Shown here piece after piece: positions 10,401-63,842 of a stretch of DNA of 64,000 bases. The notes beneath the pieces are model-generated. The model was given only the letters and a program-made list of their open reading frames with translations. It did no database searches and was not told the DNA's origin. Each line of letters begins with the position of its first letter. The stretch's first letter is position 1. This DNA comes from Apostichopus japonicus (Eukaryota; Echinodermata; Holothuroidea; Aspidochirotida; Stichopodidae): NCBI RefSeq assembly GCF_037975245.1, contig NC_092580.1, positions 7,104,501 to 7,168,500 on the forward strand, given 5' to 3'. The translations under genes and the position numbers were made by a program.

Positions 10401-13400
10401 TGTCCCCTGGGGGACTTCCCATAGGGTGCAGCTACAAACCGACGCACGCAACTATATTTACAAGTCACCTCGCAAGTCCCCATTTATACACCTGGGTGAA
10501 GTGTAGTCTGTGTATACACAGATAAGAAACCTAACTCCAGTTGGTGAACATTATGTCGTCAGGACAAGCCATTTGCATTTTGTTCAGATTTTTAATTTGA
10601 TATTTCTCAAAGATGGGAGAGTTTTATAACTACTGTAACCTTACAAGACTGAATGACTGAAGGAGTATATATGTAGTGTGGTAATGGTTGTTTGTGGGTA
10701 CTGTAGGTGTGATGTTAGTATATGAGTGACCCTGGGCTGAACTTCATGTGATATTAACTCAAAAAGTGTTCCTACCTGTACAGTAGTCTAGCTTGAAATT
10801 TATGTTTGTTTACTGTAAACAGTATGTAAATCCCATGAGATGATTATAGGAGCCAAGTGTAAATTTTAACTGTGGGTCAAAGTTCACTCGCGATCAATAG
10901 AGATGACAATCCAACACATGTTGAGGTGAATCGAATCAAATCATTTTAATATGTTATGTTTGGCTCTGGTTTCCTTTTATTTTGCTTTTCAAACACACCC
11001 TCTGTCATTTGTCTGTTTCTTGTCTTTGTCTTTTATATTCCTCTGTTACATCTTGATGATAAGTACTACAGTAATATGCTTAAATTCTGCTTGGTTGTGT
11101 TTCTTTTGTTTTGTTCTGTTCTGTTATTTTTTTTATTTGATTCATTCAGCCTTTACTTTATTGCTGTAGTGTATTATCGACCAAGTTAAAAAATGAAAGT
11201 AAAGTAGTCAGTGCTTCAGAAGTTTGATTTCTTTATACATTTCATGTTGTGACATACGTTACAGTACTACTGCCGTACAGTACATGTTTATGTAGTTTTG
11301 TCATGACTGTAGTCATATTCTCTTGTACCTTTCTTTTTGGATCTCAATCAGATTTTAGAATTTTTTTGCACACTGTAAATCAGTTCATGTACAGTAAGAC
11401 TAAACCTGAGGGCACAATTTATTCATAACACTGTGCTATAGTGGAAGTATCCAACATTGCACATTGCTGTCCTATGAATGTACTGTATGCCTCATTATAC
11501 AATGTAAAATCATGCACTGTAGTGTCAAGTATGCATTAATGAACATGTGTCCCTGTGTTTGATTTAAGCTGTTGTGAATTAAAATTGCAGACTTGTAAGA
11601 TGATATTGTCCATTCTTAAACTCTTATACAGTAGTAAAGCTGTGCTGTCCAATCTACAGGTATAAAGTGGCATACAGGCCTTTTTTTTTTATCGAGATGG
11701 TTAAATTTATATCTGGGAGCATAATATTTTTTATGAATTTCACATAAATTGTTTATTTAAATTCTTGCCTATTATGATTGTAAGTAATTCTGTTACTTTC
11801 TTAGTCATATTATGAGTAACTCTATTAGATGTATAACCCAGACGTGCAGACATTGCAGTGCTTGAACAGCATTGACCACCTCAGGAAATGATTCACATGC
11901 AATTGGGTATGGTGTGCATCCATAATGTACTATGCAGTCATTGTGGATATTCATTTGTACTATAGTTGGTGGTAATTATTAATCACTCTGGTTGAGGTTC
12001 ACAGTAGTGTACTGTAGGTGCCTTTGAACTGAACACCTACACTTTGGCCTAGTTTCTTAGTGTTAGTAATACACCCACATACAGTGGCTCTGTGTAGAAG
12101 TTGACAAACTTAGACAATACAGCAGTGTGTTTGTTATTTTATGGACCTGAAATTGGTAGACATTTATAGGTTATTTCACAGTGTTTGAATAAGTGTGCAC
12201 ATATGTACAATACTGTATGTTATTTTTTTAATTTTTATTTATCTCTCTTTGTTGAATTCCCAATTGATGTGAAAGGATTTTAAAGCCTAACATGCTTAGT
12301 TATTAAACCTTGAAGACTACAGTATTCATTCTTACTATAGTACAATAACAGTATTATACTGTAAGCTGTGCTATATATTTATATTATGCTGTGCTTCAAA
12401 ATTTGACACCACTCTGATAAAGGGCACTGCACTGTACATGATGAGCATCACTGATGTAATAGCAGTTTTAGGGCAATATCTGCATATGTGAATAAAATGG
12501 CACAATTGTGGCAACAAATTTCACGTTTACATTCTAAGGGCAACATTTACAGTACAAACAAGTTCCTGTTTATTTAACACTTGTTTCAATGTAATTCAAA
12601 GAATGATAAGAAAAGGAATGCAAAGATAATTTGAGGTATCCCAGGGCTGTTATTTCTGTGATACAATAGGGATTGCTTTTTTATTACTAGACTACTGTAG
12701 AGCTAAATTCTACAGGTATATACTTACAGTAGATTCGGAACGACCTTAAAGATCATTTTAAAGTTTGATACAGTGATGAGAAAGGGCATTGACAGCTCAA
12801 GCTTAAAGTGCATCAAATTGAGCATTTGTACGATGATCATGGTCAATATTTTGAGCGGGCACTCTGGCAAATTTTGTGAAGAAAGGCCACAAATTACATT
12901 TTTTTTTCAACCTGAGTTATTTATGATTTTCATGAATTTCATGATTGATACTGTAATTAAAGTTTACCACTGGATCAGCTAAGTTACTGTAATCATAAAT
13001 GGTCTGAAGAAAATGCTGGTCAGGAAAGCCCAACCTTATTATAACCAACTAGCAGCCTCAAACAACCCTGTCGTGAGGAATTGGACAATGTAATGTCCTG
13101 TGTAGTATTATCCCTTATGAAAATCATTTTAGTGTAATAAATAGTAAGAATTATACACTGCTTGTTTCATTAAGAGATTTGTCAAAACATGTTCAGTTAC
13201 TGTAGTGCATATACTGTATATGTATAAATTTGTACTAATTATGTTTGATTTATTTATTTAAGTTTGATCTGTCTACATCATTTTTCATTTTGATTGATAT
13301 TACAGAATCTCAGAAGAATTTCCATCTCGAAGATTCCGAGCTTAGCTTTGTGAGTAATGTCGTAGCCTCCCAACCGAGGATAGTCATCTTTGGACAGTCT

Positions 13401-16400
13401 TTCGCAGCCAAGGCGACGCTAGCCAACCATCTGCTCGGTGAGGATGTCCTCGGGGTACCTCCGCTAGGAACACAAGATGACAAAGCCTACCGGTTAATCC
13501 GTATCAAGTACGGTCAGAGGAGATGCAGCAGTCTGTCCTTACAGGAGAGCTTTGAGCTCATCGATCACAATAGCATGAACTTACAGGATCGGGATTGGCA
13601 GACCATTCCAGAATGGCAGGTACGCATCCACTCGGAGGGGCGATCCAAGGATCCCGCTTCAAATGCCATCGCCGATGTGACATTAAACAAAACCTTGCTG
13701 TCGTACAACGTACAGATAGTGATATCACCACATAACCTGACCGGATCGAACGTACAGAGAACATTTGAAAAGTGCGTCGGCAGTGGCTTACCCATAATAA
13801 TGTACGCTTTAGATGGTGACAGTCTTACTAGAGAGTGTCAGAATTCACTCTTAGATTTAAGGGCAGCTGCGCACGAGTACCCCCTCTTGTTTGTGGACTG
13901 CTGTTTGAAGTATCGCCCCCAGATTCGATTGCCGCCGAGGAAATCTTTAGATTACTCGTCCAGCGATTCTCAGAGTCCAGAGGATTGCGAAGATGACTCT
14001 GCTTACGATACAGATGAGGTGGGAGCTAAAGCGGGCACTCCAAACTTAAATTCAGGGAGGGGGTCAAATGGTGGTGACGCTTACCGTCAGTCATCCTTGA
14101 TGTCGCAGCTGAGGAACTTGGGTTTCCTCAGCGACGTCAATTTTGAATCCAAGTCAAACCAACACCTGCTGTCCAGTCGCTTTGAAAACATACACAACGG
14201 TCCCGGGGTCGTGCAATCAATTCACTATATACTGCAGTGGTACCTGGTACAGTCTGCATCTTTCTTACACAGACTTCACTTAAAGTGTATGAACATGTTC
14301 ATAATGTCTGCATTTGACATGCAGAGAGACATCTTGATAACACCAAAGAGACTGGAGTTTGCCAAGAAAAGGGAAGCAGAACTGTTTGAATCTCTGAAGG
14401 GTCTTGCCGAGGAGAGGCAAGTTGCCATCAGTGAGATGATCAGAGATACCGTGGAGTCTATGGAAAATGAGCTGGTAGAAGAGGCTGTCAAATGTGAGTT
14501 GAGAGGTACGTACAAATTACATAAATATATTCAGTACTATATACTTATACAAATATCAGCTGGCCCTGGAAGGATCAATCACACAGATTTAAGAGTTGAG
14601 AGGTACGTACAAATTACATATAAACAGTATATACTTCAAATAACAGCTGGACCTGGAGTCATCAACGACACAGATTTAAAAGTTAAGAGGTACGTACAAA
14701 TTACATATACAGTACTATATACTTCAAATAACAGCTGGACCTGGAGTCATCAACCACACAGATTTTCCTCGTGCACTCTGAAAGTCTCTGCATCTCTTCC
14801 TCCAGAGAAGTATTTTTTTCACAGCCTCTCAGCTCTGTTTTTTATTGTACACTATACATTACTACTGTACCATGTTCTTTTCGAATTTGAATGAAAAATC
14901 CTGAGGATTGTTGAGAACTTCTTCCACCAGTTTTGGTTTTTCTTCTCTCATTTTCTTTTATATATTTTTGCATGAAATGTAGATATCGAAGAAAGTCAAG
15001 AAATAGAAGGTATCTCGCAGAGTAAAGCTGTGAAGCAGTGCACCCAACAGATAAAAGACCTTGTTCTGACCAGTCTTAGAGCTGCGGTAGTGGAGAGGCT
15101 GGTCAGCACTGTGGATCGTCTCCAGGACAGCTACCTGGGTACCCTGGAGAGATGCTTGCAGAGTTTAGAGGCAGAGGGTGACAAGGACTCTACTTCATCT
15201 ACAAGTCACGCTCTACAAAAGGTGAGAGTTTAACGTGTATTTAAGTTTAATTCCGTTTATCTGCATACCCATTGGAGATTTCTTGACACAAACGAGCAAA
15301 TACTTTTCATACTGGAGTATACAAACTTTTTAGCAATTTATTAAATTTTTATGAAATGACTGGGAACTACCTGTATACACAGTGGAAAATCAAGAGTTGG
15401 GTTACATTGAATATGTTTAAAAGAAGAATTTATCTTCTAAAATCCAGCTAAGTTTTTTTGAGCATCAAGTGAAAACTGTAATAGACAAGAATCACTTTAA
15501 AAGAAGACATTTCTTGCATTTCACCAGGATGGTTTGAATGCGCCCACCTTTCACCAGTCAAATATATATCTCCTGTGGACATTTAAAACTGAATTGCAAC
15601 TGTTCAGGGATTTTGAGAGTATGCACTTAACAGTTTAATCAAAGTTTCCAGCTGTGTTTGTCTGCACCATACGATCAGTCATCTTGTATGTACCGTACAT
15701 GTGGTCTTACAATACATGACTCACAGAGCTTAGCTACCGTATGTTGTGTGTACGAGGGTTGCTGTATGTTTAAGCAAGATATATCATTTTACCAGTCTCT
15801 GTTGACACTCAGATGTATGATAACAGTAAATATGTGGAGGTTTACAACACTGTCCTATGATTACTGTATCATTAATACCCTCATTCCAAGATAACATAAT
15901 ATATGACTGGACAAAGTTGAATCACCTGTTGTCACCTTGGTTTGTCTGTTGCTTTTAACTATATTTATATCAATGCTGTGCAATTTTGTGTGTGATGACT
16001 CCTGTTCCTACTACCACTTTCCCCCCTCCCCGCTCTCTTCTCCCTCCATTCCCCCTCCCCAACCCCACCCTCACAAAAAAAGAAGAGGAAAACCAAAGGA
16101 AAGGAAAATGTTGTTTATTACCAGGATGCTACAGAGATACTGTACATGTGCTAACTATTCCTAATACAGCAGAGCAGTTTGACCTTTGACATTTCAGTCA
16201 TGTTTACCTGAAGGTACTGTAGCCATATAGATGAATTAATAGTGACATTGGTCCTGAAGCAAATTATGTACTGTATTCAATATTCATGTACAGTTTCCGA
16301 AATTTATTGCAGAACTAATAGTGTTAGCGTTTTTTTTAGTGTTCTGCAATCTGCATTGCAGTTTGGTGGTGATGAATTTTGTTTTAATTCCCACAAGGGG

Positions 16401-25400: not shown

Positions 25401-28400
25401 TGGTGTTTTTTTCTAGGAATGCCGAAGCTAGAGCGAGAGATTGGCAGAGGGCAGTACGGTGTTGTGTATTCTTGCAAGTCCTGGGGAGGCCTGATGCACT
25501 GTGCAGTCAAATCAGTGGTCCCTCCCGACGACAAGCATTGGAACGACCTCGCTATGGAGTTTCATTACACAAGGTTTGAACATTTTGTATAAGGAATAGT
25601 GTCGTCTTTTTCATCACCCCCACCCCTCCACCACACCCACCCCAACCCCTCCACCACCCCCAAGCCTTCACCACCCCCAACAGCTGTAGAATTTATGTAT
25701 AGATTGTATCTAGAGACTAACTTTACTTTACGATCACAGTTTACTATGTGATTAACTTTGATGATGAATTATGCTCATTCAGCAAAAAAAGTTTGTTTCT
25801 GTGAACAATTTTTTTGCTAAATTTGAGGTTAACAAAAACAGGGTCGTTTCATCATTTCATGCTGTCATTGAACGTGCAAAAAGTCCTGCAAAGGCAATTT
25901 ATTTTAAATAGAAAATGTATTTTCTAAATGGGTTTTAGCTTTTTGGCATTTACGACTTTAGAAAGTTTGCTATTTGGATTCATAACAAGAATAGAACAAG
26001 GAGAGAACCCTTTAAAACTGTGAGGTAAATGTTGTCTCTTGAAAGAGAAAGTGCCACCGATCTGAAGTGGTCATGCACAAATGGATTTAAAGTTCTGTTG
26101 AACTTCGGATGAATCATCTTTCCTGTTACTTGAAATAACTGATAAAACTTAACCTGAAAGACGTGAAAATTGCAATGACGTAAAAAGATAGAGAAACAGA
26201 GAAAGTGAAAGTTATTTTTAGCAATTGGCATCGGGTCTCTTTTATGTGAATCTAATTAATGTTGTTAATTATTAATCCGTTAACCTTTTGTTTTCATTTC
26301 GATACTGTTTTGGGTCTTTCTTAGTTCGCAATTAGACAGTTTCTCTTTCATTCTGCTTACATATATAGCTTTCTTTAAGTGTGCAGTTCATTCAATAATA
26401 TCATCCTGATTCTGGAAGAATGATGAAACAATATTACTCATATTAAAAAACAAATAACAAGAAATTACTTATATAAAACAAGAAGGGACAACAAGCTACA
26501 CATATAAAACAACAACAATTACTTATATAAAACATCAACAAACAACAAATTACTTTTATAAAACAACAAACAACAAATTACTTATATGAAACAACAAATT
26601 ACTCCTATAAAAGTTTCCATCCAGGATCTTCTTGACAGGCAAACTGAAGTGAAATCACTAAGGCCATATTTGAAATAGACAGGCAATTTGATTGGACCAT
26701 TGAACAATGAATAGAATAAAATAAACAGAACAAAGGGCACAGTGAGATGAATAGAAGCAGGAAGTGATAGGAGAGCACGAGATTAAAGGGGAGCTAAACT
26801 CTACAGATGGATGTAACCATGAGAATTAAATAGAGAAGGAGGAGAATCAGGAGAAATAATGAATGATGGGGATGAGGAAGGATAAATATTTGTGGTTGTT
26901 GTTGATAGACATGGTGTGTGGTGAGGAAGGAGGGGGGGGGGTGTGGATAGGCTGGGGGAGGGGATTGATAGGTTATTCTCTTTGTGGATTTTGGACTATG
27001 AAGTTGAATCATGGTGGGAAGTTCTTGCATCCATAATGGTTCCCTGTAGAGGCTAATTGTAGCAGGGCTGATACTTAAAGATTGAGAAGTCCACAATGAA
27101 AGAGAACATGATCAGCAATGTACTTAACAATCTGTAACTCATGCAAACCCCGTCATTGACACACCCCAGTAGAATTTTATTTAAATTTAAATGTTTCACT
27201 TAAACAGAACATCTGTGAAATATTCTGCCAGCAAAGATTTCAAAAGAATATAAGATTCATTTTGCTGGTTTTTTGATACTTGCATGCTTACTTGAACATT
27301 TAATACAAAGATCAAATTAAAAATAATTTGCTACAAAATTTAAAGCCAAGAGGCTACATCTTTCTGTTTCAGCTATAAACATGTAAACAAACACTTGTAT
27401 GCCATTTACAGGTTTTGCCTCAGCAGATAACAACACTTACATTGCCATCATTCATAACTTGTCTCGATAAAGAATCCACTTGAGCTTTGGAAATTGAAAC
27501 AAAATTGAGTGGATCGATAACAAATTAAGTAACTACTTCCACTCTTAAAGTTAACATCTAAAATCAATGGTTAATTGCACTTCATACTTGGTATGTGGAT
27601 CCTGTTATTGTTAGAAGTACCTTATTTTGGGGGTCTGGCTTTTAGCTCAGCTCTTTCCTTTCTGCATGTGTTAGTTAGCTCGTATCACCTCTTTTGATTC
27701 CTGTGAAGGCTGTACTTAAGACCCTCAGCACAGCAGGGGGGTTTTGAATGGATCAAGGGTGCCTTGAATGGATCAAGGGTGCAGTTATTGACATTGGGTA
27801 CTGAAGAGGAGGGAACCTAATGGCTATAGGATGTATGATAATCATTCTAACAACTGGACCATGCTCCATTTCCTTATAAGATCTGAACTGACAGTTATAG
27901 TTTCTTTTAATAAATGGACTTATATGACACTTTTAAAAGGATGTTGATCCTATGGATTCTCCACTGTAATCAGAAAATGCATCATGTGCAGCTCTCAATG
28001 GTGAGCTGACCCAGCAAGGAAGATCACAGATAGTAATGTGAATGGCAGGCACCCTACAGATGACATTCCTTTACACTTTATTATGCAAGGGTATACCAAA
28101 GAGTGCTTTAATGTTACCTGTTGTGCTGTACTCTACTGAGCTGTGACCTCACACTATAGTGAAGGTCGTAGTAAAATTGTCACAAATAAGCTGAAACGTC
28201 TCATATGAATTATTGGTATAATATTTTTATTCGTAAAATTTGATTTGTTTGAAGATCCATCCCAGCCCACAAGAGGATAGTGGCCATTGCTGGTTCTGTC
28301 GTGGACCAAGGTTACGGAGGAGGGGGGTGTTCCTTGGCAGTCCTACTGATCATGGAGAGGATGCAGAGGGACCTCCACACGGGTATCAAGATGGGCCTGG

Positions 28401-30519
28401 ACCTACCCAGCCGTTTACAGGTGGCCCTGGATGTGGTTGAGGGGATCAGATACCTGCACAGTCTTGGCCTTGTACATAGAGATATTAAATTAAAGAATGT
28501 TCTGGTGAGTCCCAACAAACATGTGCTGAAATTAAAGGGATTAAAAACCGAATCTGAAGGATTCACTGCTTGATGAAAGTTAAGTCACTTTGACCTTTGT
28601 TTAGAAAGATATTGGAATGCATTACTGTCCTCATCCATAATGTGGTGCATTTTATGTGCCTGGTGCCTTTCACAAAATTACGAACAGGCTGCTATTTTTG
28701 TTAAATTTGCAGCTATCTTAAGCATTACTTCAAGAAGGAAAAAACTTAAAACAGTAGTTGGCACTGCCGCTGAACAACTGCATAAGTGACATCTCAAGCT
28801 TTAAACTTTGTGAATCATTATGCCTAAAAAGTCACTTTGTATCAGAGTAAATCATCCATGGAAAGTTGATTACTTCACAAGATGATGAGAATTTGTAACC
28901 AAATTTACTGCTATTGAAAAGAAAACAAAGAAATATAGGATGTGGAAGTAAAACGTATGCAAAATGAAGATACAAAGAAATCTATCAATTTATACATCAG
29001 TGCCCCTACATCTGCTTCAAAGATCCCAGAGCCATATCCCTTACTTTATATAATCCTAGATTCATCCCTGCTAGGGGTCACTGTACTTTAACCAGAAAAG
29101 GAAAGGTAACCAGTATTTCAGCAGTTTTGATGTCTCTGTACATTTTGTCTTTTCTTTGCAAGATATAGCAGTTCTAAGTTCATGTAGGTTAAGGTGTAAT
29201 GTTTGAAAGCTCTTGGAGAACAGATTGAATAGATGTTGCTGATGACCTCAGCTCCTCCATGAAACTTGCCGATTTCAAGATTATCATATTTCAATTGCAC
29301 ATAATTCCTGTTTTGTCATTTTCCTCATGTTTCTGTTATATATCTTTTACGTTTTTTTCAGCTTGATGCCGGGGACAGAGGTAAAATCACTGACCTTGGT
29401 TTCTGTAAGCCAGAGGCTATGATGAGTGGTAGCATCGTCGGTACTCCCATCCACATGGCACCCGAGCTATTCACCGGCAGATACGACCACACCGTGGACA
29501 CCTACGCGTTTGGTATCCTCTTCTGGTATATCATTGCAGGACATGTCAAGCTACCTCAAAACTTTGAAAAGTGTCATAATAAAGATCACCTTTGGTCCTC
29601 AGTAAAACAAGGTGAGATTATGATACTAAGACATGTTTTTCTATTTTTTTTGGGAGTAGGTGGGTGGGAGGGGGGGGGGGGGATGGTATGTGTGGATGCC
29701 CTTCATAGTGTTCACCTTAAGAGTGTTGTTAATGTTAGGTACGTCATTTATTTGTTTTGAAAAGATTTCAGGAAAAGTAAACAAACTTCCTCTAGGTAGT
29801 AAGCCTTTTCGAGAAAAGTAAACAAACTTTGTCAAGGAACTGAGCGTAACATGTGGCACAATGAATGACCAGACTAGCAACATATCTTGTACTGAAGAAT
29901 TTACATTGCAAGACATATATGATCATAAATGAAGAAGGTTGTGCACGTTCTTAGTATTATCAACCTTCATTTCTGCTGTCTTAGTTAAGACAGAATATTG
30001 TATTGTGCAGAACTGCAATTCTAAGAGTGCCATTTCTAACAGCCAATCCTACTGAGGATTTAAAATATCGATGTACTCAACTGGACTTGGGCCCAGTCTA
30101 GAGCACTCCAAGTCCTGGACAAGTTCAAGTCCACAAAAATATGGGTCCAAGTACCAGCTCACCCTACAAATGGAGCCCAATAAGTCCTGTTTTCATCCAC
30201 AAATGTTAAGGTTTACCTACTTAGATCCATGACAGGGGAAGCTTCAGTAAGAAGTAGTAAATTGAGATGACAATCAGATTTGAAATGTTTTACATACTAA
30301 TCAGGTACTAGACCGGAACGACTACGGCTGTTTGACGACGAGTGCTGGAACCTAATGGCCAGCTGCTGGGCTGGAGAGATGTCACAGCGCCCTCTACTAG
30401 GAGTTGTCCACGAACAGCTGCAGGAGATACGATGTCGTGCTCTCGAAAGAATCCGACCCAAAGGGAGCATGCCAGACATACAGACAGATCCACAGTTAAT
30501 TAGTTCCAACATTTTATGA
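7457..30519 (+). CDS. DSTYK: dual serine/threonine and tyrosine protein kinase (DSTYK/RIPK5), complete, ten exons
   Basis: Exons: 7457-7619, 13306-14505, 14983-15221, 19304-19387, 22224-22349, 24542-24725, 25417-25573, 28255-28504, 29362-29611, 30305-30519. All junctions are GT-AG with matching phases and give 955 aa, close to the vertebrate protein (about 930 aa). The kinase domain begins at about residue 667: glycine loop IGRGQYGVV (674-682), Lys697 in CAVKS, catalytic HRDIKLKN (792-799), the family-typical DLG (812-814) in place of DFG, then [20 protein letters not shown], a run diagnostic of DSTYK. The first 660 residues are the long DSTYK-specific region, with a degenerate P-loop-like GQSFAAKAT at 84-92. 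Start: ATG 7457 with A at -3. In vertebrates the kinase is linked to FGF/ERK signalling and cell death; here that role is inferred from homology. Introns total about 20 kb. Exons 2 and 6 have duplicated donor regions downstream. Confidence 0.95.
8098..8425 (+). mobile_element. tRNA-derived SINE (family 1)
   Basis: The head GTGGCCTAGTGCCAGTGGAT resembles a Pol III A box region, and GGTTCCAGGTTTTGATACTC about 60 bp later resembles a diverged B box. CGCCCGGGTCATAGTAAGGT follows, and the copy ends in TTATTATTATTATTATTACT at 8402-8421. The arrangement (tRNA-like head, unrelated body, short-repeat tail) is typical of a SINE. An (A)n-rich interruption sits at about 8262-8283. Old copy. Confidence 0.6.
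10228..10501 (-). mobile_element. 5'-truncated SINE (family 2), reverse orientation
   Basis: Read on the minus strand, this matches the SINE at 57.9-58.3 kb from CTTCACCCAGGTGTATAAAT through GGGAAGTCCCCCAGGGGACA to a (TAA/TTA)n tail. The tRNA-like head is missing, so it is a 5'-truncated copy. It lies antisense to DSTYK in intron 1. Confidence 0.8.
14495..14771 (+). repeat. three tandem copies of the DSTYK exon 2 donor region
   Basis: GAGTTGAGAG/GTACGTACAA (the exon 2 end plus intron start) recurs with donors at 14506, 14603 and 14690, giving unit lengths of 97 and 87 bp. Each unit also holds an acceptor-like CAG/CTGGMCCTGGA about 43 bp before the next donor. The exon 2 frame stays open through all copies to a stop at 14894. 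Confidence 0.85.
15222..19303 (+). other. DSTYK intron 3
   Basis: No gene. It holds a G-rich run at about 17086-17128 and frequent TACTGTA words. A 22-bp direct repeat (ACTCCATCCATATTGAATCC at about 17706 and 17781) falls inside a 124-codon minus-strand frame, which I regard as chance. Confidence 0.6.
19388..22223 (+). other. DSTYK intron 4
   Basis: No gene or clear mobile element. It holds a G tract at about 19697-19707 and AT-rich unique sequence. A 114-codon minus-strand frame (20689-21033) shows no family features. Confidence 0.5.
22832..22915 (+). mobile_element. SINE/LINE 3' tail fragment
   Basis: GTAAAGCACTTTTGAACATG, then GAGCACTATATAAATTTGGT and an (ATA/AAT)n tail. This resembles the common 3' end shared by tRNA-SINEs and partner LINEs in marine invertebrates; the reversed fragment at 60.05 kb has the same AAAGTGCTTT...TATATAAATTTTA organisation. 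Sequence upstream to about 22690 may belong to the same element. Confidence 0.55.
24263..24298. repeat. 10-bp inverted repeat, 16-nt loop
   Basis: TCCAAGGGAC at 24263-24272 is complementary to GTCCCTTGGA at 24289-24298. An isolated hairpin in DSTYK intron 5; function unknown. Confidence 0.7.
24672..24900 (+). repeat. 91-bp tandem duplication of the DSTYK exon 6 / intron 6 boundary
   Basis: Units start at TCCTGG at 24672, 24763 and 24854 (period 91; third unit partial). Each begins with exon-like CTAGAGAGCACTTCATT. The first two continue through AAAGATAAAGTTTTACA(T/C)G to GTTAGT donors at 24726 and 24817. Reading past the first donor meets TAG at once (CAT GGT TAG), so only the first donor keeps the kinase frame. 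Confidence 0.9.
24899..25065. repeat. degenerate short tandem repeat, ATACCATTAG-based
   Basis: About seven irregular units of the form TTTRATACCATTAGMTRTGG lie directly after the 91-bp duplication in DSTYK intron 6. Confidence 0.8.
25099..25383 (+). other. unidentified 95-codon open frame in DSTYK intron 6
   Basis: The frame opens after a TAG at 25096 and ends in TGA at 25381-25383. The translation is not low-complexity (for example [17 protein letters not shown]) and has coding-like composition, but I recognise no family. Phase does not fit insertion between DSTYK exons 6 and 7. It may be a decayed mobile-element ORF or chance. Confidence 0.25.
25574..28254 (+). other. DSTYK intron 7
   Basis: No gene. 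Contents: C-rich ACCACCCC tract at 25615-25680, degenerate tandem repeat at 26430-26612, G tract at about 26931-26941, and a 20-bp direct duplication (GAATGGATCAAGGGTGC at about 27747 and 27766). Confidence 0.6.
26430..26612. repeat. degenerate ~25-bp tandem repeat
   Basis: About seven variants of ACAAATTACTTATATAAAAC follow one another with CAACAA spacers. AT-rich satellite-like block in DSTYK intron 7. Confidence 0.8.
28505..30304 (+). other. DSTYK introns 8 and 9 (with exon 9 at 29362-29611 between)
   Basis: Apart from exon 9, I see no gene or complete mobile element. A G tract at about 29670-29682 lies in intron 9. Around 30080-30170 a CAAGTCC-rich stretch resembles fragments of dispersed elements. 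Confidence 0.5.
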
Positions 30520-36066: not shown

Positions 36067-36406
36067 GCATCCCCTCACATCACTACACCACCCATCACTA
36101 CACCTCCCATTACTGCACCAACCATCACTACACCTCCCAACACTACACCTCCCACCACTACATCACCCATCACTACACCAACCATCACTACACCTCCATC
36201 ACCTTACCACACATCCCATCACTACACTACCCATCACTACACCAACCATCACTACACCTCCCATCACCACACCACCCATCACCACCTATCATCACACACA
36301 CAATCACTACACCACCCATCACTACACCTCCCATCACCACATTCCCCATCACTACACCACCCATCACTTTACCTCCCATCACTACACCAACCTTCACACC
36401 CCCAAA
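36067..36406 (+). repeat. 15-bp minisatellite (CATCACTACACCACC), ~22 copies
   Basis: The array is open in two plus-strand frames: one reads ITTPPITTP-like Thr/Pro repeats (frame 36004-36429), the other HPSLHLPSPH. A Thr/Pro mucin-like exon is conceivable, but no flanking exon, signal peptide or splice context supports it. A (TG)n tract precedes it at about 36004-36017. Confidence 0.85.
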
Positions 36407-36582: not shown

Positions 36583-39500
36583 TTAAACATTCGGATTTAA
36601 AACGGTCAATGCCAAGGACCAAGACTCTATAGATATTTTAGCATTCTGGGGCTTCTTGCTACCCTTAGAATCCCCCTTACCCACCACATTACTTGGAATT
36701 CCACCTTGGCAATCGGTCATGGCCGATTCCAAGTCTTGGCCGAAGAGCATCCACTGTATCTTCTTATCTACATCGGAGCTCTCCTCTCCGACGAAGCTGA
36801 GGGAATTGTTGTTCACCATCTCTTCCTCCTTCCCGATAGCTTCTAAAATCGTGAAATTCATGTCAGAGAATTCACTCTTCGTTTGAGAGTGCTTCATCAT
36901 TTGAGAGGTATTCGCCGTCCGGAAATTTGGTTTGGTGATCTTGTCCCGGGATACTTTGAGGACCTTGTGAGCACAATTGTTGATTACGTTCTTATTAATA
37001 TACATGGCTACTTGCAAATCGTTGTGACTGGTCTGTGTCGACATTGTTCGACCTTTCACCCTTATGTTTGAGAGCATGTCGGTGGTGACTATCATGGCCT
37101 TGGACCTTTCATTTGACGTAGTTGCTTTAGCCTTCCCAAGAGGCAGAATGTTGACTTCCCTTTTAACTTCAGGGTTCTGCTTGTTGCCTTGCCCCGCTAT
37201 AATACCGACATGACCTGCTTGATTACTGCGAATTATCTGTGAGAAAATAGAGGAATGGAAGAAAGTAAAATCATAAATTAAACAATTATAAATAATAATA
37301 AGCAATAATCTTGCAGTGCTAGTTATTACACTGCTATTGGTGTTCAAAGTTAGAACACTTTTCCCTTAATTTAGAACATGCAGCTTTCACATGCACTGCT
37401 AGATTGTGTCCTGAAAAAATTGCAGATAGTTACAAAGCCTTAGGAAGTCACCAGTACTGATATACACTTTGGTAGTGTATACGGCAATAAAGGTTGAATA
37501 TAACTGCACAGTATACCCAGGCAGAGATGCTTTTGGATGTAAACCTTTAATGAAACAAAACGGTACGTTTTACTTACATTAATATGGACCCTTTTGATCG
37601 GTGTTGTTGGTTTAGGAGAAGCTGGTACAGAGGAATCTTTGCTTTTGGGAACCTCTGTGGAAAAAGGAAATAAAAAATGAAGAAATGAAATGAAATCACT
37701 TTAACATACCAAGGGACATCTTCTTCAGGAAGGTTAATCTAACATCATCTCCGTGGGTAAGCAGTTTTCAAAACTGACTGCTATTTAACCATTACATTCA
37801 AACCAATTTGGGCTTGAAAATTTACCACAAGAAACAGTCAATTAAATCACACATGATACATTTAGTTCCTAGCTTTATCACATTAAGCAGATCTTAATCG
37901 TTCGCTTTATCCTCCTTAAACCTCCTTATTAAACAGAATTTACTTTCACAACACTGCTTCATTACACACAGAAAACCAATCACAAACCAATGATGCACAT
38001 TTAAGATTTCATATTAATAATAAACCAGGGATATAATGAAAGAAATGCTTAGACTTACCAACAGATTTGACTTTTGCTGGTGAAGACTTCCCTGGTGAAG
38101 AGGGTTGCACAGATGACTTACCAACAGATTTGACTTTTGCTGGTGAAGACTTCCCTGGTGAAGAGGGTTGCACAGATGACTTACCAACAGATTTGACTTT
38201 TGCTGGTGAAGACTTCCCTGGTGAAGAGGGTTGCACAGACTGTAAAAGAGAGATGTATAGTAATTAGTTATTAATGTTACTGCTCTCTACAAGGTTTCTT
38301 GCTTCGTTCTTTCTTTACAATGAGCCATCTATAAGCCAAGTCCAGTACTATGTGGAATCAAAGAAGCTTACAGTAGTTGGAGCCACTTCAGTAATTATAC
38401 TCTACTTGGTCTCTAAACTTGAAATTTGAAAATAGTAGAGAATGTAACATTTATCATATCCTTGATCATGATAATATTCTGGAGGGAGATTTACTTTTAA
38501 AGTTTGATCAATTTTAATTATTAGTAGAGTTCAATAGTTGATATGTAAATTTTATCCAAATTTCTTCTCAAACCCAACAGCTGATTTTTAAAGTCTCATA
38601 GTCTGGACAGCACTATTGCCATAAAATTGGTTTTGATATAAATATGATAATTTTAATGAGAAACACCTTCTGTATTTTTTTTAACAGCAACCAGCTGTGT
38701 TCATAAACTCTCTCACTACTAAGAACAGGTGTACTACTATACAGGTTAGCTGTGTCATCAAAAGGTTTCAAGTAAGTCTACTAAGATCATTCAATTTAAC
38801 CAATCATTATTAAGGACTTTAGAATGTGTTATAACTTACCTTCACTGGGACAGTACTGGGTTTTTTCTTACTACCAGATTCACCTATTAAAACAAAACAG
38901 AGATACAAAATACAATGGTTTAGAGGCCAGCTAAATATTTTTTTTGCTGGGATGACATCAGAGGTAATACCAGTAATCAAACCATGATGGAAAATTGACC
39001 TCAGTCCTTGTAAAAGATAAATCAAGGCCAGTTAAGAAGAGAGGCTCTTCTGTATATTCCATGTCATGATACATACAACACTGTTAATCCTGCAGAGAGC
39101 TAGCTAGTAGTACACTAAACCGTATGGGAAAAAAAAAGATCGTTTAAGATATTGAAATCAATTTCTTCAAACCACACCAACATAGCAAAACTATTTACTG
39201 CATTTAAAGAGTGCAGGAAATTTCAAGGCTTTTGTTTTTTATTGTATGTTGAAGAATTATAAACATACCTGACAATGTTGCTTTGCTAGCCACTACTGCC
39301 TGTTTAAGCTCCTTGAAAACTGATGACGTAGATTGTAAAACGACTGGTTGGCTTCCTCCAGGTGTATTAATCACTTTCGTGGTATGTTCTTGAGAAGTGG
39401 AAATATCCTCAGCGGACGGCTGCACTTCAATCCTCTCTTCCGATTCTTTGTTCTTAGAAGGCGAGGGACTAGTCGAGCTGGATCCCTGATTCTGCACACT

Positions 39501-39986
39501 TTTCTTATTGATATCTGATTTCACTACATCATCCCCATCTGATGGCTTTCCATCGCTCCCTTTCGAAGAATCAGTTATGTCCCCCCTGTCTTGTCCAACA
39601 TCCACATTATCAACTGACTTTTCCGACTCGGCTGTTATTTTCCTATCTTCAGCAGCCTTTGTAGGCTTTCTCTTCTTCTTCCCGCTGAGACCATCCTCCG
39701 GTAATTCTTCCACAGAATTTGATGCTCTCTTACTGGTGTTTCTGGTCGTCCTGGTAACTATTCCCTTGGATTGTCTGGGAGTGTTCTGCTTATGACTCAC
39801 AGTCTTGACAGGTGCGATGTGATCGGATGTACTGGAGCCTCTGGGTGATTTCCTTGGTGCATCCGTGGCCTCCGTCACTTCCTTCTTGACGGTGACGCTC
39901 GTCTCCATTATAAAATCTTTGCCGTAGCGACTGGGCGTGGATGGGGTCCTTCGGGACCTCCGGGTAGATCCATCTCCAGAGGACAT
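36583..39986 (-). CDS. unidentified basic, SP-rich, probably nuclear protein (five exons)
   Basis: Exons on the minus strand: 39269-39986 (ATG), 38840-38883, 38059-38239 (longest form), 37578-37654, 36583-37236 (stop). Junction sequences are canonical (donors GTATGT, GTAAGT, GTAAGT, GTAAGT; acceptors TTTAATAG, TTTTACAG, TTCCACAG, TCTCACAG) and phases match, giving 557 aa. The N-terminus is basic and proline-directed (RRSRRTPSTPSR, PRKSPRG), with a bipartite-like NLS GKKKRKPTKAAEDRK and long acidic/Ser-rich disordered stretches. Exon 3 encodes up to three 21-aa repeats with SPGKSSPAK, reminiscent of S/T-P-K-K DNA-binding motifs. The last 217 residues are less biased and include FSDMNFTILEAIGKEEEM. 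I do not recognise the family. The 5' UTR probably has an intron (TTTAACAG acceptor about 30 bp upstream of the ATG). Confidence 0.75.
38053..38239 (-). repeat. 63-bp in-frame tandem repeat carrying three GTAAGT donors
   Basis: Exon 3 of the minus-strand gene consists of three near-identical 63-bp units. On the minus strand each contains TCTGTTG/GTAAGTC, a perfect 5' splice site; the possible exon ends are 38185, 38122 and 38059. Exon lengths of 55, 118 or 181 bp all leave phase 1, so all three choices keep the downstream frame and give one, two or three copies of the 21-residue repeat. When a donor is skipped, GGT AAG TCA is read as Gly-Lys-Ser. Confidence 0.92.
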
Positions 39987-46306: not shown

Positions 46307-48745
46307 TATTATTCTAAAATTAATTACATACAAACCATAAAATTCACTCAGTTCTCAAGTTCGTTGCGTACGTATCATGTTTCAAAATCACTGATCGAAC
46401 GGAATGCATATGAAGATGATATATACGTAAATAACGTTTTGTTTTCTACGAAGATACTACCCAATGCATTAATCGTATAAATATAGTGATCAAACCATAT
46501 CCGTAGCCAGGATATGTGTACAGTGCTTCGAATTTCTTGTGAGCTTATTATTAAGAGTACCCTTAAAAATAATGAAAACGAGTTTCATGGAAACAACACA
46601 AGTGATCGACGGTATCTCGTGTTACCTTGATTTATGCTATAGGTTTGAACAACAGCGTATAACACTGACAAAGTCTGACAAATATCCAAAATGGATGTAC
46701 ATACCGACGCAATTCATATCGGTAAAAGGGTTTCCTTCCCCCCACTCCCCTGTTTTCTGCCCGCCCTGTCTGTGAAATATACTTTAAATAAAAGTTAAGA
46801 AAGTAATAAGGATGATTTTTGAAAAATACTTCAATCAAAAGATGACTTGTTTACAAACATGTATAAACTTAGGTTTATATCTTGCACGCATTTATACTCA
46901 TGTACAATAAGGTTCCGCATTAGCTATATCTGAATGCTACAATACATATATACAAAGATAGGGGTGCAGGGACGTTGCGATTCATGGGAGGAATTATCTG
47001 ACTGGGCTTTTCTGTGCCCTTATTTCTCCTCAAGTTTATTATGAAATGAAGAATGCATTTTTATTACCTTGATATTTTGCCGGGGGCCCTTATTGACCCC
47101 GAGGTCCGGGATTGCAAACCCTTTACCACACCTCTCTCTCGTCAAGCCTGGAGGGTTAAGGATACCTTAAGAACTAATATAATTTATAGCGAAAGCATAC
47201 TCGTGCAAAACCTACTTGCTAGCTATACTCCAAGCCTTCACCCCAAAGGTACAGTATTGTCTACAACTTTGGTTACATGTTTTACGACTCCCAGGAAATC
47301 AGCGAAATTGCAAAATATTTGTAAGTCATATTGCCATTAATACAACTGGCTGTATTTAATTATACTAAACTTACATGTTCATATTCCACATTGTAATAAG
47401 CACCCAAGTTGCTTACGCAATAAGCCCTAAAAAGCTTCGTGGAATATGTCACCTCTCACCAAAAGTTTACTGTTTATCAGCAGGCCGGTATGTACGGAAG
47501 TATTTGGGGACAAGCCTGACCCCCACCCCCCCCCCCCCCGGAATAACCTATGTCCCACTTCGGATAGTACGGTAGTAGTGTGATGAGACTAACATTTTTT
47601 ACATTTCAAACTGCTTTCGTAAACTATGTTCAAGCCCAAAATGCCCCGAATTGCACCATTTGTCGTCCAGAATTTCAAGATTTTCCGGGGGCACGCCCCC
47701 AAACCCCTCGGGCATTCGACGCTCGATGCACGTGACCACGTCCCAGCCGGAGTTAATTAAAATGGTTCATTTTTCATAAAATCACCCCACCCCAAAATAA
47801 GCTGTATACGAGTATGATCAGTGACGATGAATCGGGTAGAGTGGGGGGGGGGGGCTGGGCAATGGATGACCTTTTTGCTCTTGACTTCAAAGTCTTTGTT
47901 ACTTGTTCCCTTCTTTGTCTTAAAGCAAATGGCTTTTATTATGACTATGATGTAACGTGCTATAGCGATACTTTACCAGAGTGTATTTTCAAAACAAAAG
48001 ACGTTACCATGGAAACGCGATCTCGAAATCTAAGGTATGTACCTACCTTTAATAAATGAAACTCTAGATTAATGAAACATGAAAAGTCAATATCGGTTAC
48101 TTTAATTAAATGTAAAAGTGTTTCACTGATGTGATCAGAAACAAGTAAACGGTTCCCATCGTTTTGTTTGTATATGTACTTAATTAATGTGTTGGACAAC
48201 AAACCCAAGAACAGTTGTGCGAAAGGGAATAAATATTCTGGCAGTTTAGGTTTTGTATTTAGAAACACTATAACTGATTTATTCGTTACCCGGCGAATAA
48301 CAGTTCTTTGAATTACAGTTTTTCTCCTTAACCATTATTTAGCCTTGAAGTTCTTTCTGATATACAGACAACTTCTGGTCGAGCCGAGTCACGTGACACT
48401 CGAGCACCCGGATTTGGATTAACAATAATAACGACCACGTTAATGCGTATACCGCCTATCAATTGGACAGACCTTTAAATTTAAGCCGGTCGACATGGCG
48501 AAGTTACAGCGAAGACAGTCACAATGGATTCGATAACGCTTAAACGTTTGATCTATATCAAATGAATTGAACTTTCGTCACCAAAAAAACCAAACAAGAA
48601 AAGGAGAAAAAAAAGGGCATTCGCAAAGACTGCAAAACAACATTAACTTGGAGATGTGTTCGGTCACTAAATATGCGGCATGAAACACTCGTGCTTTACG
48701 TATAATACTACGTAACAACTTCTGATCATAATATAACGATAAGAG
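46307..48745. other. intergenic, 5' flank of the GPCR gene
   Basis: No gene recognised; open frames up to 102 codons (e.g. 47053-47340, 47960-48268) show no family features. C tract at about 47526-47539 and G tract at about 47844-47853. A CCGGGGGCACGCCCCCAAAC stretch at about 47685 looks like a DNA-transposon subterminal fragment. Confidence 0.4.
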
Positions 48746-51052
48746 ATGATATCGTTTTATCCTAACATCATGAGCAACCACTCAGTCGAGGAATTTACCA
48801 GAAATAGCACTAAGATGTCTTCGATGTCGACGAGTTTAACATTTAGCATTTCATTTACGATTGTTTATCTTGTTATTTATCTTCCAATCTGCATATCGTC
48901 TATTTTCGGCAACGGATTGGTCATTTTCGCATTTCATCAAAACGAAAATTTAAAAAAGGTTATAAACTATCCTCTCATAAGTTTAGCTGTCAATGATTTC
49001 GCAACCGGAAGTATAGCCCTGCCTCTTCATCTGATTGGTCGTTTAGTCATCAATCCATTCATCTGCAGAGAATCTTCTCGAATGATTTTCTTTCTTCCTT
49101 CTAAGGTGCTATTCTTTTCCTCTGCCCTTCATCTATTCAGTATTGCGATTGGTCGGTAAGTTGTTTATATACTATTAGGTATACCGTATGGCCAAGAGGA
49201 CTATACCTTCCTTCACCCAGTATACATTTCTCTACTCACCCCCAATGCCAACCCCCCCCCCCCCCATCCTCACCACTACCTTTTTTCATGTACGTCTGGT
49301 GGATAAAAAAAAACTACAGCATTGAAGTCGAGGTTCCATATTTTAATGCTCATTGCTACGTTCCCATGCATATGCATGTAAAGGCTATACCCATGCAGGA
49401 CTTCACCAAATACACTGCATTCTTCTGCGGACAAAATTATTCAAAAATTGTATTCGAAAAGCGTATTTCTAGCTCAATTGTCATGGCATTTCACTCATTC
49501 TGCTGTTGGTAGGTTAAGCCGATTAGTGGACTTTATCAAACTATTATCTTTACCATAAACATACTCTGTGAGTACATAAAGTGTCGAACAAAATATGTAT
49601 ATAACAAGAGGATGTGTCTTCAACCACGTCCAACAAAAACCTTGAAGAAAGTATAGCATATAGAGACATCTACAGACCTGTTACATTGATTTCACTATTA
49701 TAGCATGCGTTATGCCGGATGTAAACCTTTCAGAATTACTAAGTGACCGTCGGGATAGGATTAGAGCTGTTGGGAATTGATATAAAAGATTGATTTTCAG
49801 AAGCAGACATCCTCCATGAAGTATGCATCTTCGTTAAGTACGTATAGTTCGCTGATCGTCTCTACGTTAGTTGGACAGAGAGGAAAGGTATATTTGTATT
49901 ACATGGAACGTTCCCTATACTCCCTACCCTAAGATATAGTGGCGTGCACAAGATTTCAAATGTGTGTTTGTGTGTGTGTGTGGGGGGGGGGTGGCAAATT
50001 AAATTCCCAGCCTACTTAATTTAGGCGCATTGACGTTTACGTAAGGGCTTCATGGACCAGGGGAGTGATCTAATTCGTCTCCGACTGAACATTTTGCTCG
50101 AACAGACGAAGGATGTAAGGCTATATACCCTCCTCCTCCTCCATTGCCAGAAGCCCTCCCTTGCAACTCCCCTCTCCCATCTCACAGTACTAATGCGATT
50201 GCGTCGAACGTTATTCCACTGAGAAGCTATTATTATCTCTCTCTCTCTCTTTGTCATTTTAGGTTCATTTCTTTGTTAAAGCCGCTGAGCTATCCCTTGC
50301 TGGTATCTTCGAAGCGGGTTAAAGTAATATTGGCAATACTTTGGTGCATCGTTTTTACTAAGTTTTCACTGATCCTGATTGGAGTTAGTCAAGCTAAAGA
50401 GAACATGATTTGTGACGGAGACAAATATCAATCTCCTTTTGTGTTTTTCATTTTCATACAGTATGCATTTATACTTCCTGTTATTCTCGTTGGAATGTTT
50501 TCCTTATACCTGTTTATGGTCAGAATTGCATTTATTCAACTGTCTCGTCGTCGTCGTCGCCGTGGAAATGTCAGAACTTCTCAACTGGTCAAATTGCGGC
50601 AACTAGAAGCGCGCTCAAAGTTCCGTGGTTCTGTAACCATGGCAATAATAGTGGGGGCGTTTTGTTTTTGCTGGATGCCGACTTCCTTTAAGTATATGTA
50701 CGTATTGTTTAAGAAAGGAAACCTTTCCGCAGATGCTTACAACACGTTGCAATTGATATGTGAATTTCCCGCTTTTCTTAGCGCCATATTGAATCCAATA
50801 ATATATGCCTGTCGTAAGAAGGATTTTCGAGTGGCTTATTGCAAAATATGGAAGAAAATTACACATTCGACAGTAAGGGGTAGCGGCCCTGGTAGGAAAC
50901 AGCATTCACAAATACGAGTATTGAAAGTATGGCAAGTGGATTCGATTTCCATGAGAAGGCCATCCATACTGCCTTCGAATGTGTATAGGGGCAAGAAACA
51001 TTTCAACGGCACTTCCATTGCAGCTGGATCTGGCCCTTCAAATAGTTCATAG
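48746..51052 (+). CDS. rhodopsin-family (class A) G-protein-coupled receptor, two exons
   Basis: Exon 1 is 48746-49155 and exon 2 is 50263-51052 (stop), joined phase 2 through GGTCG/GTAAGT and TCATTTTAG/GTTC; 399 aa. N-glycosylation sites NHS and NST precede TM1 (GNGLVIFAF). TM2 has LAVND (D2.50), TM3 begins with the conserved Cys in NPFICRESS, ECL2 has Cys in MICDGD, TM6 has FCFCWMP and TM7 NPIIYACRKKDFR. ICL3 has a run of six Arg from a CGT/CGC repeat. The intron falls exactly in the DRY position, common in invertebrate class A genes; here the motif is IAIGRF, lacking the acidic 3.49 residue. TM6/TM7 resemble amine/adenosine-type receptors, but the ligand cannot be named. A second in-frame ATG at 48770 could be the start (391 aa). 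Confidence 0.9.
49156..50262 (+). other. GPCR intron
   Basis: It holds a C run at about 49252-49265, a TGTG/G-run at about 49968-49990 and a CTCTCT pyrimidine tract directly before the acceptor. No other content was recognised. Confidence 0.7.
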
Positions 51053-63000: not shown

Positions 63001-63842
63001 GTCTATAGTAAATAAAAAAAAAACTATGAGCTCACTCTCTAGTCAAAGCTGATGAAATTTGATCAGCTTCAAGCTCTATACAGAGGATACCGCATATCCA
63101 TACTTACATATGATAAAGAGCTACTAAGGCCTATGCCACAATGTCCACACATCATTTTGTGCAGTCAGGCTTCTGTACAGCAAGTTTTAATGCAATTCTT
63201 GTAACTGTTTTACCTGTAATTTTAATTCAAGCAGATGAAAACCTGTCTTGTGACTGTTTCAAATGCAATTTTAATACAATTCAATTCTAAATAAAATAAA
63301 ACTGTTTTTAGTAAACAGCTTATCCACTAGAGACTGTGTAGGAGAATGTGTGAAATTAAGTTGGCCTGACGTTTCGATCCTAGCAGGATCTTCTTCAAAG
63401 GCTAAATGACAAGGGTCATTTAGCCTTTGAAAGAAGATCCTGCTAGGATCAAAACGTCAGGCCAACTTACTTTTATACACAATTCAATTCTAGCAGATGA
63501 TAACCTGTCTTGTAACTGTTTCACCTGCAATTTTAATGCAATTCATGATAACCTGTCTTGTAACTGTTTCACCTGCAATTTTAATGCAATTCATGATAAC
63601 CTGTCTTGTAACTGTTTCACCTACAATTTTAATGCAATTCATGATAACCTGTCTTGTAACTATTTCACCTACAATTTTCAGAAAGCGTCGTGAGCGCGGT
63701 GACCGTGGTGACCGTGGCGGGAGAGATCGAGATCGTGACAGAGATAGAGAGAGAGGAAGGGATAAAGAACGATCCCCACAGGGATTCTCTCGTAAGCCAG
63801 ACAGTGACGATGAGGGAGACAGGGATAGGCCGAGGAGGAGAG
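57094..63842 (+). CDS. RBM17: RNA-binding motif protein 17 / splicing factor 45 (RBM17, SPF45), N-terminal part; gene runs off the right edge
   Basis: Coding exons: 57094-57172, 60629-60837, 61926-62095, 63682-63842, with GT-AG junctions in consistent phases (1, 0, 2, 1), giving 206 residues so far. The start MSLYDGLGVDTD is the conserved SPF45 N-terminus. Next come SGWSAGIRMMQSQLRLKKAA, APVVDLKKG, DEYDPAYPNEYEKMYRR (SPF45 has DEYDP.FPNDYEK) and an RD/RE-rich basic stretch in exon 4 ending in the FSRKPDSDDEGD segment. In the known family the remaining half holds a G-patch and a UHM/RRM that binds U2-associated ULM proteins at the 3' splice site; those lie beyond this window. The product acts in the nucleus in second-step and alternative splicing. 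The ATG follows a 5'-UTR intron acceptor (57086). The exon 4 donor AGAG/GTTGGT is weak, so its exact end is less certain. Confidence 0.93.
57888..58280 (+). mobile_element. tRNA-derived SINE (family 2), near full length
   Basis: The head has an A box (TGGTCAAGTGGTTAAGGC) and B box (GGTTCGAGCCC) in tRNA spacing, at about 57902-57956. A body ending GCGCTTTATAAGAACTGTGT and a (TTA)n tail follow. A 5'-truncated, inverted copy is at 10.23-10.50 kb. TTAAGACAAAG occurs just after the tail (about 58281) and also near 57810, so the inserted unit may start about 60 bp before the tRNA-like head with an imperfect ~19-bp target duplication. Confidence 0.88.
58790..60600. repeat. three tandem copies of a ~400-620 bp unit in an RBM17 intron
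   Basis: Shared landmarks in order: CTCAAAATGACATGTACGAG (about 58892, 59318, 59918), CCTCTATGATTTCTTCATTT (about 58988, 59390, 60011), GTATCAATGATGTTTGTACT, GGCCGGAGAGAACCC (about 59160, 59562, 60377) and ATAGCTGCTGTCTTT. Copies 2 and 3 also share a 3' part ending CTCTCTTCTR...TTTCCATTTGTAG. Copies 1 and 3 share a head, CCATATTGTAGA...CATCAAAACAC. The array stops about 28 bp before the exon 2 acceptor. Confidence 0.9.
60046..60236 (-). mobile_element. SINE/LINE tail fragment inserted in array copy 3
   Basis: Copy 3 is interrupted between GAACAAGAAAA and ACAATTGACATAAG, which are contiguous in copies 1 and 2. The insert, read on the minus strand, contains AAAGCACTTTGAGAAGC and TGCACTATATAAATTTTACT with a (TTA)n end, like the tail at 22.85 kb. 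Only AAAA is a possible target duplication. Confidence 0.7.
60900..61603. mobile_element. hAT-like non-autonomous element, ~704 bp, in an RBM17 intron
   Basis: The left end TAGTGTTGTGCCAATATTG and right end CGAATATTGGCGCGACACTA are inverted repeats with a few mismatches. Flanks TCATTAAT (60892-60899) and TCATTACC (61604-61611) agree at 6 of 8. Subterminal CCGATA-rich sequence appears at both ends. It contains a 32-bp tandem repeat (61128-61250). No transposase. Confidence 0.7.
61128..61250. repeat. 32-bp minisatellite, ~3.8 copies
   Basis: Units ACAATACAGCGCTAGATGTT + GTGTTCACTTGT inside the 60.9-61.6 kb element. Confidence 0.9.
63170..63681 (+). repeat. 48-59 bp tandem array ending in the RBM17 exon 4 acceptor
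   Basis: About six units of the form ATRAAACCTGTCTTGTAACT-GTTTCACCTGCAATTTTAATGCAATTC. The two leftmost (about 63170-63289) are diverged; three exact 48-bp units run from 63497. The final unit becomes the real 3' splice site, CACCTACAATTTTCAG/AAAG. The 48-bp units are 16 codons long and open, reading MITCLVTVSPAILMQF, in frame with the RBM17 exon. The array is split by a 189-bp insertion at 63290-63478. Confidence 0.9.
63290..63478. mobile_element. palindromic element with 14-bp target duplication
   Basis: ACAATTCAATTCTA occurs at 63276-63289 and again at 63479-63492, flanking the insert and splitting the tandem array. Inside, arms 63358-63409 and 63416-63468 are almost perfectly complementary (one substitution, one indel) around a CAAGGG loop; weaker pairing extends to about 63346 and 63483. 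The arm sequence GACGTTTCGATCCTAGCAGG with AAGAAGATCC is of a type often found at ends of dispersed retroelements. A TSD of this length fits target-primed reverse transcription. Confidence 0.8.

Follow-up and report, generated by a model that had tools for sequence, protein, structure and literature searches.

Three identical candidate 5′ splice sites in a 63-bp tandem repeat at an exon-intron border of a predicted Apostichopus japonicus gene

Gene model and repeat array

The window analyzed here, a stretch of 64,000 nucleotides of Apostichopus japonicus DNA located at C20:7104501-7168500 in the assembly, carries on its minus strand a putative gene of five exons, the third of which lies within a tandem repeat. 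The features of this gene model are given below in the order of transcription, with a slash marking a splice junction.

39269..39986, minus strand: coding part of exon 1, from the ATG at 39986; end in phase 1
38840..38883, minus strand: exon 2, 44 nt; end in phase 0 (AAG/GTAAGTTA), acceptor rank 3 of 269
38240..38259, minus strand: acceptor of exon 3 (..CTCTCTTTTACAG), outside the duplicated block; rank 4 of 269
38178..38239, minus strand: copy 1, exon 3 (38239-38185) plus GTAAGTC; intron-distal donor
38115..38177, minus strand: copy 2, with the junction A as its first base; exon end 38122 at the middle donor
38052..38114, minus strand: copy 3, with the junction A as its first base; exon end 38059 at the intron-proximal donor
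37578..37654, minus strand: exon 4, 77 nt; acceptor rank 1 of 269
36583..37236, minus strand: exon 5, coding through the stop codon; acceptor rank 2 of 269

This five-exon model appears coherent, with splice signals and reading frame in agreement. All five GTAAGT words on the minus strand between 40100 and 36500 (3.6 kb) coincide with proposed exon ends, namely the donors of exon 2, exon 3 (three times) and exon 4, and the top four of 269 AG acceptor scores belong to exons 4, 5, 2 and 3, in that order. The acceptors were scored with a crude matrix of approximate frequencies, by which a proposed 5′ UTR exon has an acceptor placed only 19th. The GTAAGT positions and acceptor ranks thus favor the gene model on which the original prediction had built its splicing claim. 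In the assembly searched (671,581,487 bases, 35 contigs), the exon 1 protein has one match, and the array likewise has one match in these 671.6 Mb. A 15-bp repeat of 21 copies (TRF) at 36078-36397 starts ∼190 bp downstream of the stop codon and probably lies within the 3′ UTR of the gene or immediately after it.

The array occupies 38052-38239, 188 bp in all, and was reported by TRF with a period of 63, 3.0 copies and 100% matches. A second repeat search returned the same three copies, the only difference being the outermost base of copy 1, counted in the direction of transcription. Three 62-base copies, each consisting of exon 3 and intron positions +1 to +7, are identical on the minus strand and spaced 63 bases apart. 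On its minus strand, the window contains the sequence TCTGTTGGTAAGTC at three places, which puts exon ends at 38185, 38122 and 38059. Two pairs of GTAAGT separated by 63 bp are present in the window, both in the array, compared with an expectation of 0.02 and with fewer than two in each of 100 shuffles. The 63-bp exon repeat with three donors proposed earlier is therefore real, since TRF, the second search and the TCTGTTGGTAAGTC count agree. Its description as perfect applies to 62 bases of each copy, but not to the base 3′ of intron position +7, which varies between the copies (A, A, T).

Exact tandem copies are a classic place for assembly errors, and the predicted protein matches no protein family or solved structure. 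It would nevertheless be very surprising if the copy number were misassembled, or if the locus were not this gene, given that the 188 bp of the array are far shorter than long reads and that splice signals and frame agree over five exons. A PacBio HiFi assembly of A. japonicus with 671,643,915 bases in 34 scaffolds and a mean read length of 14.7 kb is described in the consulted part of PMC10344927, and is presumably the assembly used here.

Donor strength, reading frame and predicted protein

The predicted U1 duplex energy of each exon 3 donor is −9.1 kcal/mol, and the base after +7 is without effect on this value, in line with the proposal that the three donors match U1 equally well. These donors rank 4 to 6 by U1 pairing among 216 GT sites; the corresponding energies are −10.6 kcal/mol for exon 2, −8.3 kcal/mol for exon 1 and −7.0 kcal/mol for exon 4. 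Two GT sites within exon 5 (36685 and 36681) pair with U1 better than the exon 3 donors (−10.0 and −9.7 vs −9.1 kcal/mol), and thus the U1 energy alone neither defines a donor nor proves its use.

With exon 3 ending at 38185, 38122 or 38059, the predicted protein is open over 515, 536 or 557 residues, respectively. Exon 3 then measures 55, 118 or 181 nt, differences that could be relevant to exon definition. All three ends are in phase 1, as predicted, and read-through is free of stop codons. Owing to the 63-nt spacing and the phase-1 donor, where G GT AAG reads as sense without an in-frame TAA, every choice and the read-through would be coding. With at least two donors, one acceptor and coherent exons, the arrangement qualifies, at the sequence level, as a set of candidate alternative 5′ splice sites. 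Such retention of the frame is unremarkable and needs no selection: in a set of 1700 hypothetical tandem duplications across the exon 3 donor, the length is a multiple of 3 in 567, of which 532 (31% of the set) also keep the frame open.

The 63-nt unit encodes GKSSVQPSSPGKSSPAKVKSV, and each extra unit adds 21 residues, a net charge of +4 and two SPxK sites within a low-complexity basic stretch. The pI of the protein is 9.7-9.9, which bears out the basic character assigned to it earlier, while its nuclear location is a guess from composition. The one-unit protein contains 5 [ST]Px[KR] sites, whereas 2000 residue shuffles averaged 1.1 and only 6 of them reached 5. A Pfam search with the whole one-unit protein gave a single match far under its cut-off (E 0.13), and exon 5 alone gave nothing up to E 0.1. 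Among PDB sequences, a single match (E 0.28) was regarded as due to chance. AlphaFold2, run on exon 5 without an alignment, yielded a mean pLDDT of 28.9, and a scan of viral contigs with exon 5 found no relative. Rfam and ARAGORN gave no matches in the window.

These modules raise the alternative that donor choice acts as a regulated counter, setting the number of SPGK/SPAK modules and, with it, 2, 4 or 6 CDK-type sites derived from the units. Such a role would suit the equality and common phase of the three donors, the two [ST]Px[KR] sites contributed by each unit and the enrichment of these sites in the one-unit protein over shuffles. We regard it as unlikely, however, since the copies are identical over the whole unit and the retention of the donors is therefore no sign of selection. 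Moreover, the position-dependent preference among competing 5′ splice sites that is described in the consulted part of PMC5585400 implies that one product could dominate.

Origin of the array and related systems

The copied block extends from the first exon base (38239), give or take one base, to intron position +7; duplication thus took in the exon together with its donor but left out the acceptor. The base preceding each copy is the G of the acceptor for copy 1 and an A for copies 2 and 3, and a T follows the GTAAGTC of copy 3. Both copy junctions consequently read GTC-A-TCT, whereas the upstream flank is G and the downstream flank is T. The junction A is explained most simply if it was inserted or changed once, prior to the second duplication. 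As it is shared by both junctions and present at neither flank, the array probably grew stepwise.

The absence of differences over 3 × 62 bases limits divergence to at most ∼1.6% per branch (95%), under a star model with no gene conversion. The identity of the copies reflects recency or homogenization, not selection: it spans all 62 bases, synonymous positions included, and so provides no evidence of selection on the donors. Very recent duplication and selection for usable donors had been offered as the two explanations of their equality; the duplication does look recent, while selection finds no support in an identity that includes synonymous positions. The interpretation given in the original prediction therefore stands as to equal, frame-compatible donors, a basic protein and a recent-looking duplication, but not as to selection for the donors.

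In tandem exon duplication, the copies bear both an acceptor and a donor. The array resembles this class in that the whole of exon 3 was copied. It differs in that the acceptor is uncopied (TTTTACAGTCTGTGC occurs once on the minus strand, and the block begins at 38239), and as a result the copies extend one exon instead of forming separate exons.

A closer comparison is provided by the polyubiquitin gene UBC, in which, according to the consulted part of PMC10809524, AGGT at each unit border serves as both donor and acceptor and isoforms vary in the number of units; tissue-specific or feedback regulation was not found in what that part reports. As in UBC-type arrays, splice sites occur here once per in-frame unit, the unit length is a multiple of 3 (63 nt), and splicing could alter the number of encoded units with no shift of frame. 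However, the unit border of the array is TTG/GTAAGTC rather than AGGT; with no AG before the GT, it is not an acceptor in the dual-specific sense. The array has a single upstream acceptor and multiplies donors. It is thus a donor-only relative of tandem-repeat splicing, outside the UBC class.

Intron gain by tandem duplication of an AGGT-containing exon segment, as described in the consulted parts of PMC3443670 and PMC2891723, similarly places splice signals in tandem. In contrast to the cases covered there, the duplicated segment of the array spans an existing exon-intron border and its donor lacks AGGT; formation of a new intron would depend on the latent acceptor, which corresponds to the route termed ‘imprecise’ in PMC3443670. 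Intron 4 of DOK7 (PMC5585400, consulted in part) likewise has several donors and one acceptor, with possible competition governed by position or SR proteins, whereas the three donors of the array lie in identical stretches of 62 bases, each with an in-frame predicted product. No donor-only repeat array of this kind was present in the titles and opening lines of abstracts among the literature matches listed, a weak result in that these cover few subscription journals.

Competition among the donors and genomic setting

The reading we favor, with a probability of roughly 0.55, combines stepwise in-frame duplication with three competing donors, of which the intron-proximal one is usually dominant and the shorter forms are unregulated and near-neutral. 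A tandem duplication would have spanned the entire 55-nt exon 3 and 7 bases of the adjoining intron, sparing the acceptor, and would then have been repeated in register, leaving a single acceptor ahead of three identical 5′ splice sites. These sites probably compete with each other, in a gene that is itself presumably expressed. The main product would usually contain three units, by way of the intron-proximal donor (exon end 38059), with shorter forms made in smaller amounts and without regulation. The protein presumably tolerates the extra 21-residue units, consistent with near-neutrality.

The choice among equal donors would follow position, exon length and bound proteins. Of two identical 5′ splice sites, the proximal one was reportedly preferred (Eperon 1993). 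In the consulted part of PMC5585400, SRSF1 activates intron-proximal and hnRNP A1 intron-distal 5′ splice sites, and the proximal site of DOK7 is preferred; as this site is also the stronger one, DOK7 offers no clean parallel for equal donors. From these effects of SRSF1, of hnRNP A1 and in DOK7, we would expect mainly 38059 to be used.

The same position rules, which favor the proximal site in some settings (PMC5585400, consulted in part), would also suit a constitutive three-unit exon, in which only the intron-proximal donor is used, the upstream GTAAGT words are silent and the array is a coding minisatellite. This alternative is possible, though rather improbable. Read-through of the array is open, and under two of the three folding settings the proximal donor is predicted to be more open than the other two, under the remaining one less so; however, the upstream donors equal the third in U1 pairing, and their full silence would need explaining.

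Each unit also holds an acceptor-like site, CCCTCTTCACCAG/G, a feature absent from the original prediction, which scores 4.50 compared with 4.97 for the acceptor of exon 3 and ranks 6-8 of 269 AGs with the crude matrix. When joined to exon 1, these sites keep the frame (535, 514 and 493 residues), and when joined to exon 2 they break it (333, 312 and 291 residues); frame-compatible products beyond the three are therefore possible. Within the array, the following segment could be removed.

38092..38184, minus strand: candidate 93-nt in-frame exitron, bounded by the copy 1 donor and CCCTCTTCACCAG/G in copy 3; product of 526 aa

It is very doubtful that part of the array is being removed in this way as an intron in the course of its birth, despite the near equality of the acceptor-like and exon 3 acceptor scores, the in-frame 526-residue product and the published route of intron gain by tandem duplication (PMC3443670 and PMC2891723, each consulted in part). 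The acceptor matrix is crude and its frequencies approximate, the neighboring-copy versions, at 30 nt, are probably too short for splicing, and the frame is lost upon joining to exon 2.

The donors may also be affected by local folding. The hairpin predicted for copy 1 has an equivalent in the other copies.

38178..38213, minus strand: predicted hairpin with the copy 1 donor in its 3′ arm

The predicted energies are −9.3 kcal/mol for copies 1 and 2 and −10.4 kcal/mol for copy 3, and the 49-mer is matched in folding by 69 of its 1000 shuffles. Of 1500 GT sites chosen at random, 2.6% have an opening cost as high as that of the donor. Among the 42 GTAAGT words of the window, the exon 3 donors take the top three places for local opening cost, although, being copies, they are not independent cases. 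Their unpaired probabilities have ordinary ranks (29 to 110 of 192) across three folding settings. For the 231-nt region, z is −1.79, and 9 of 200 shuffles are at least as stable. The hairpins are thus a lead of doubtful significance; if they form, the donors would be weaker than U1 pairing suggests. In view of the shuffles that fold as well (69/1000), the ordinary ensemble ranks and the values for the 231-nt region, gating by hairpins was not retained as the main mechanism. A broader scheme appears remote: a phosphorylation ladder on a basic, chromatin-like protein, in which folding of three hairpin-gated donors and SR-protein balance would set the SPxK dose (2, 4 or 6), with an array growing and shrinking between individuals and part-units spliced out via a latent acceptor.

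With three donors that match over 62 bases and lie at 63-nt intervals ahead of one intron, the locus offers a clean natural experiment on the role of position alone in the choice between equal 5′ splice sites, an effect usually studied in built minigenes. It also provides a snapshot of an exon-border duplication that may be harmless because it is in frame, possibly with a repeat-number polymorphism in coding sequence. Should one donor alone be used, the case is an ordinary one; if counter-type use were true, the outcome would resemble UBC, with repeat number set by splicing. As judged here, the structure is real and exact, its origin is ordinary, and the counter is a testable possibility rather than a finding.

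Tandem repeats that contain donor-like words are frequent in this genome. A genome-wide scan for three GGTAAGT words, each 42-72 bp apart, gave 568 + 509 matches, compared with 956 + 465 for the reversed control, and is uninformative on splicing arrays. Among the matches listed (contigs C1 and C2), the triplets are mainly minisatellite-like by eye. Three of the regions, C1:9743704-9746269, C1:11632764-11633928 and C1:11672115-11672823, contain recurring GGTAAGTATATGGACAAT-like 18-bp words and are, by eye, minisatellites dense in donor-like words.

A further tandem array touching a possible splice site is present on the plus strand of the window at 63497-63678, where a 48-bp repeat (3.8 copies, 98%, TRF) adjoins a plausible acceptor, ..TTTTTAG/GAAG.., identified by eye. 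This acceptor opens an Arg/Asp/Glu-rich frame for which Pfam gave no family. Also on the plus strand, the frame at 13239-14894, which may resemble DSTYK, matched no Pfam family at the cut-off and had no PDB match, and the frames at 28253-28573 and 29305-29760 match the protein kinase domain. The frames at 48743-49159 and 50069-51052 (plus strand) match positions 1-83 and 83-260 of the 7tm_1 profile, and together apparently represent a rhodopsin-type receptor split by an intron.
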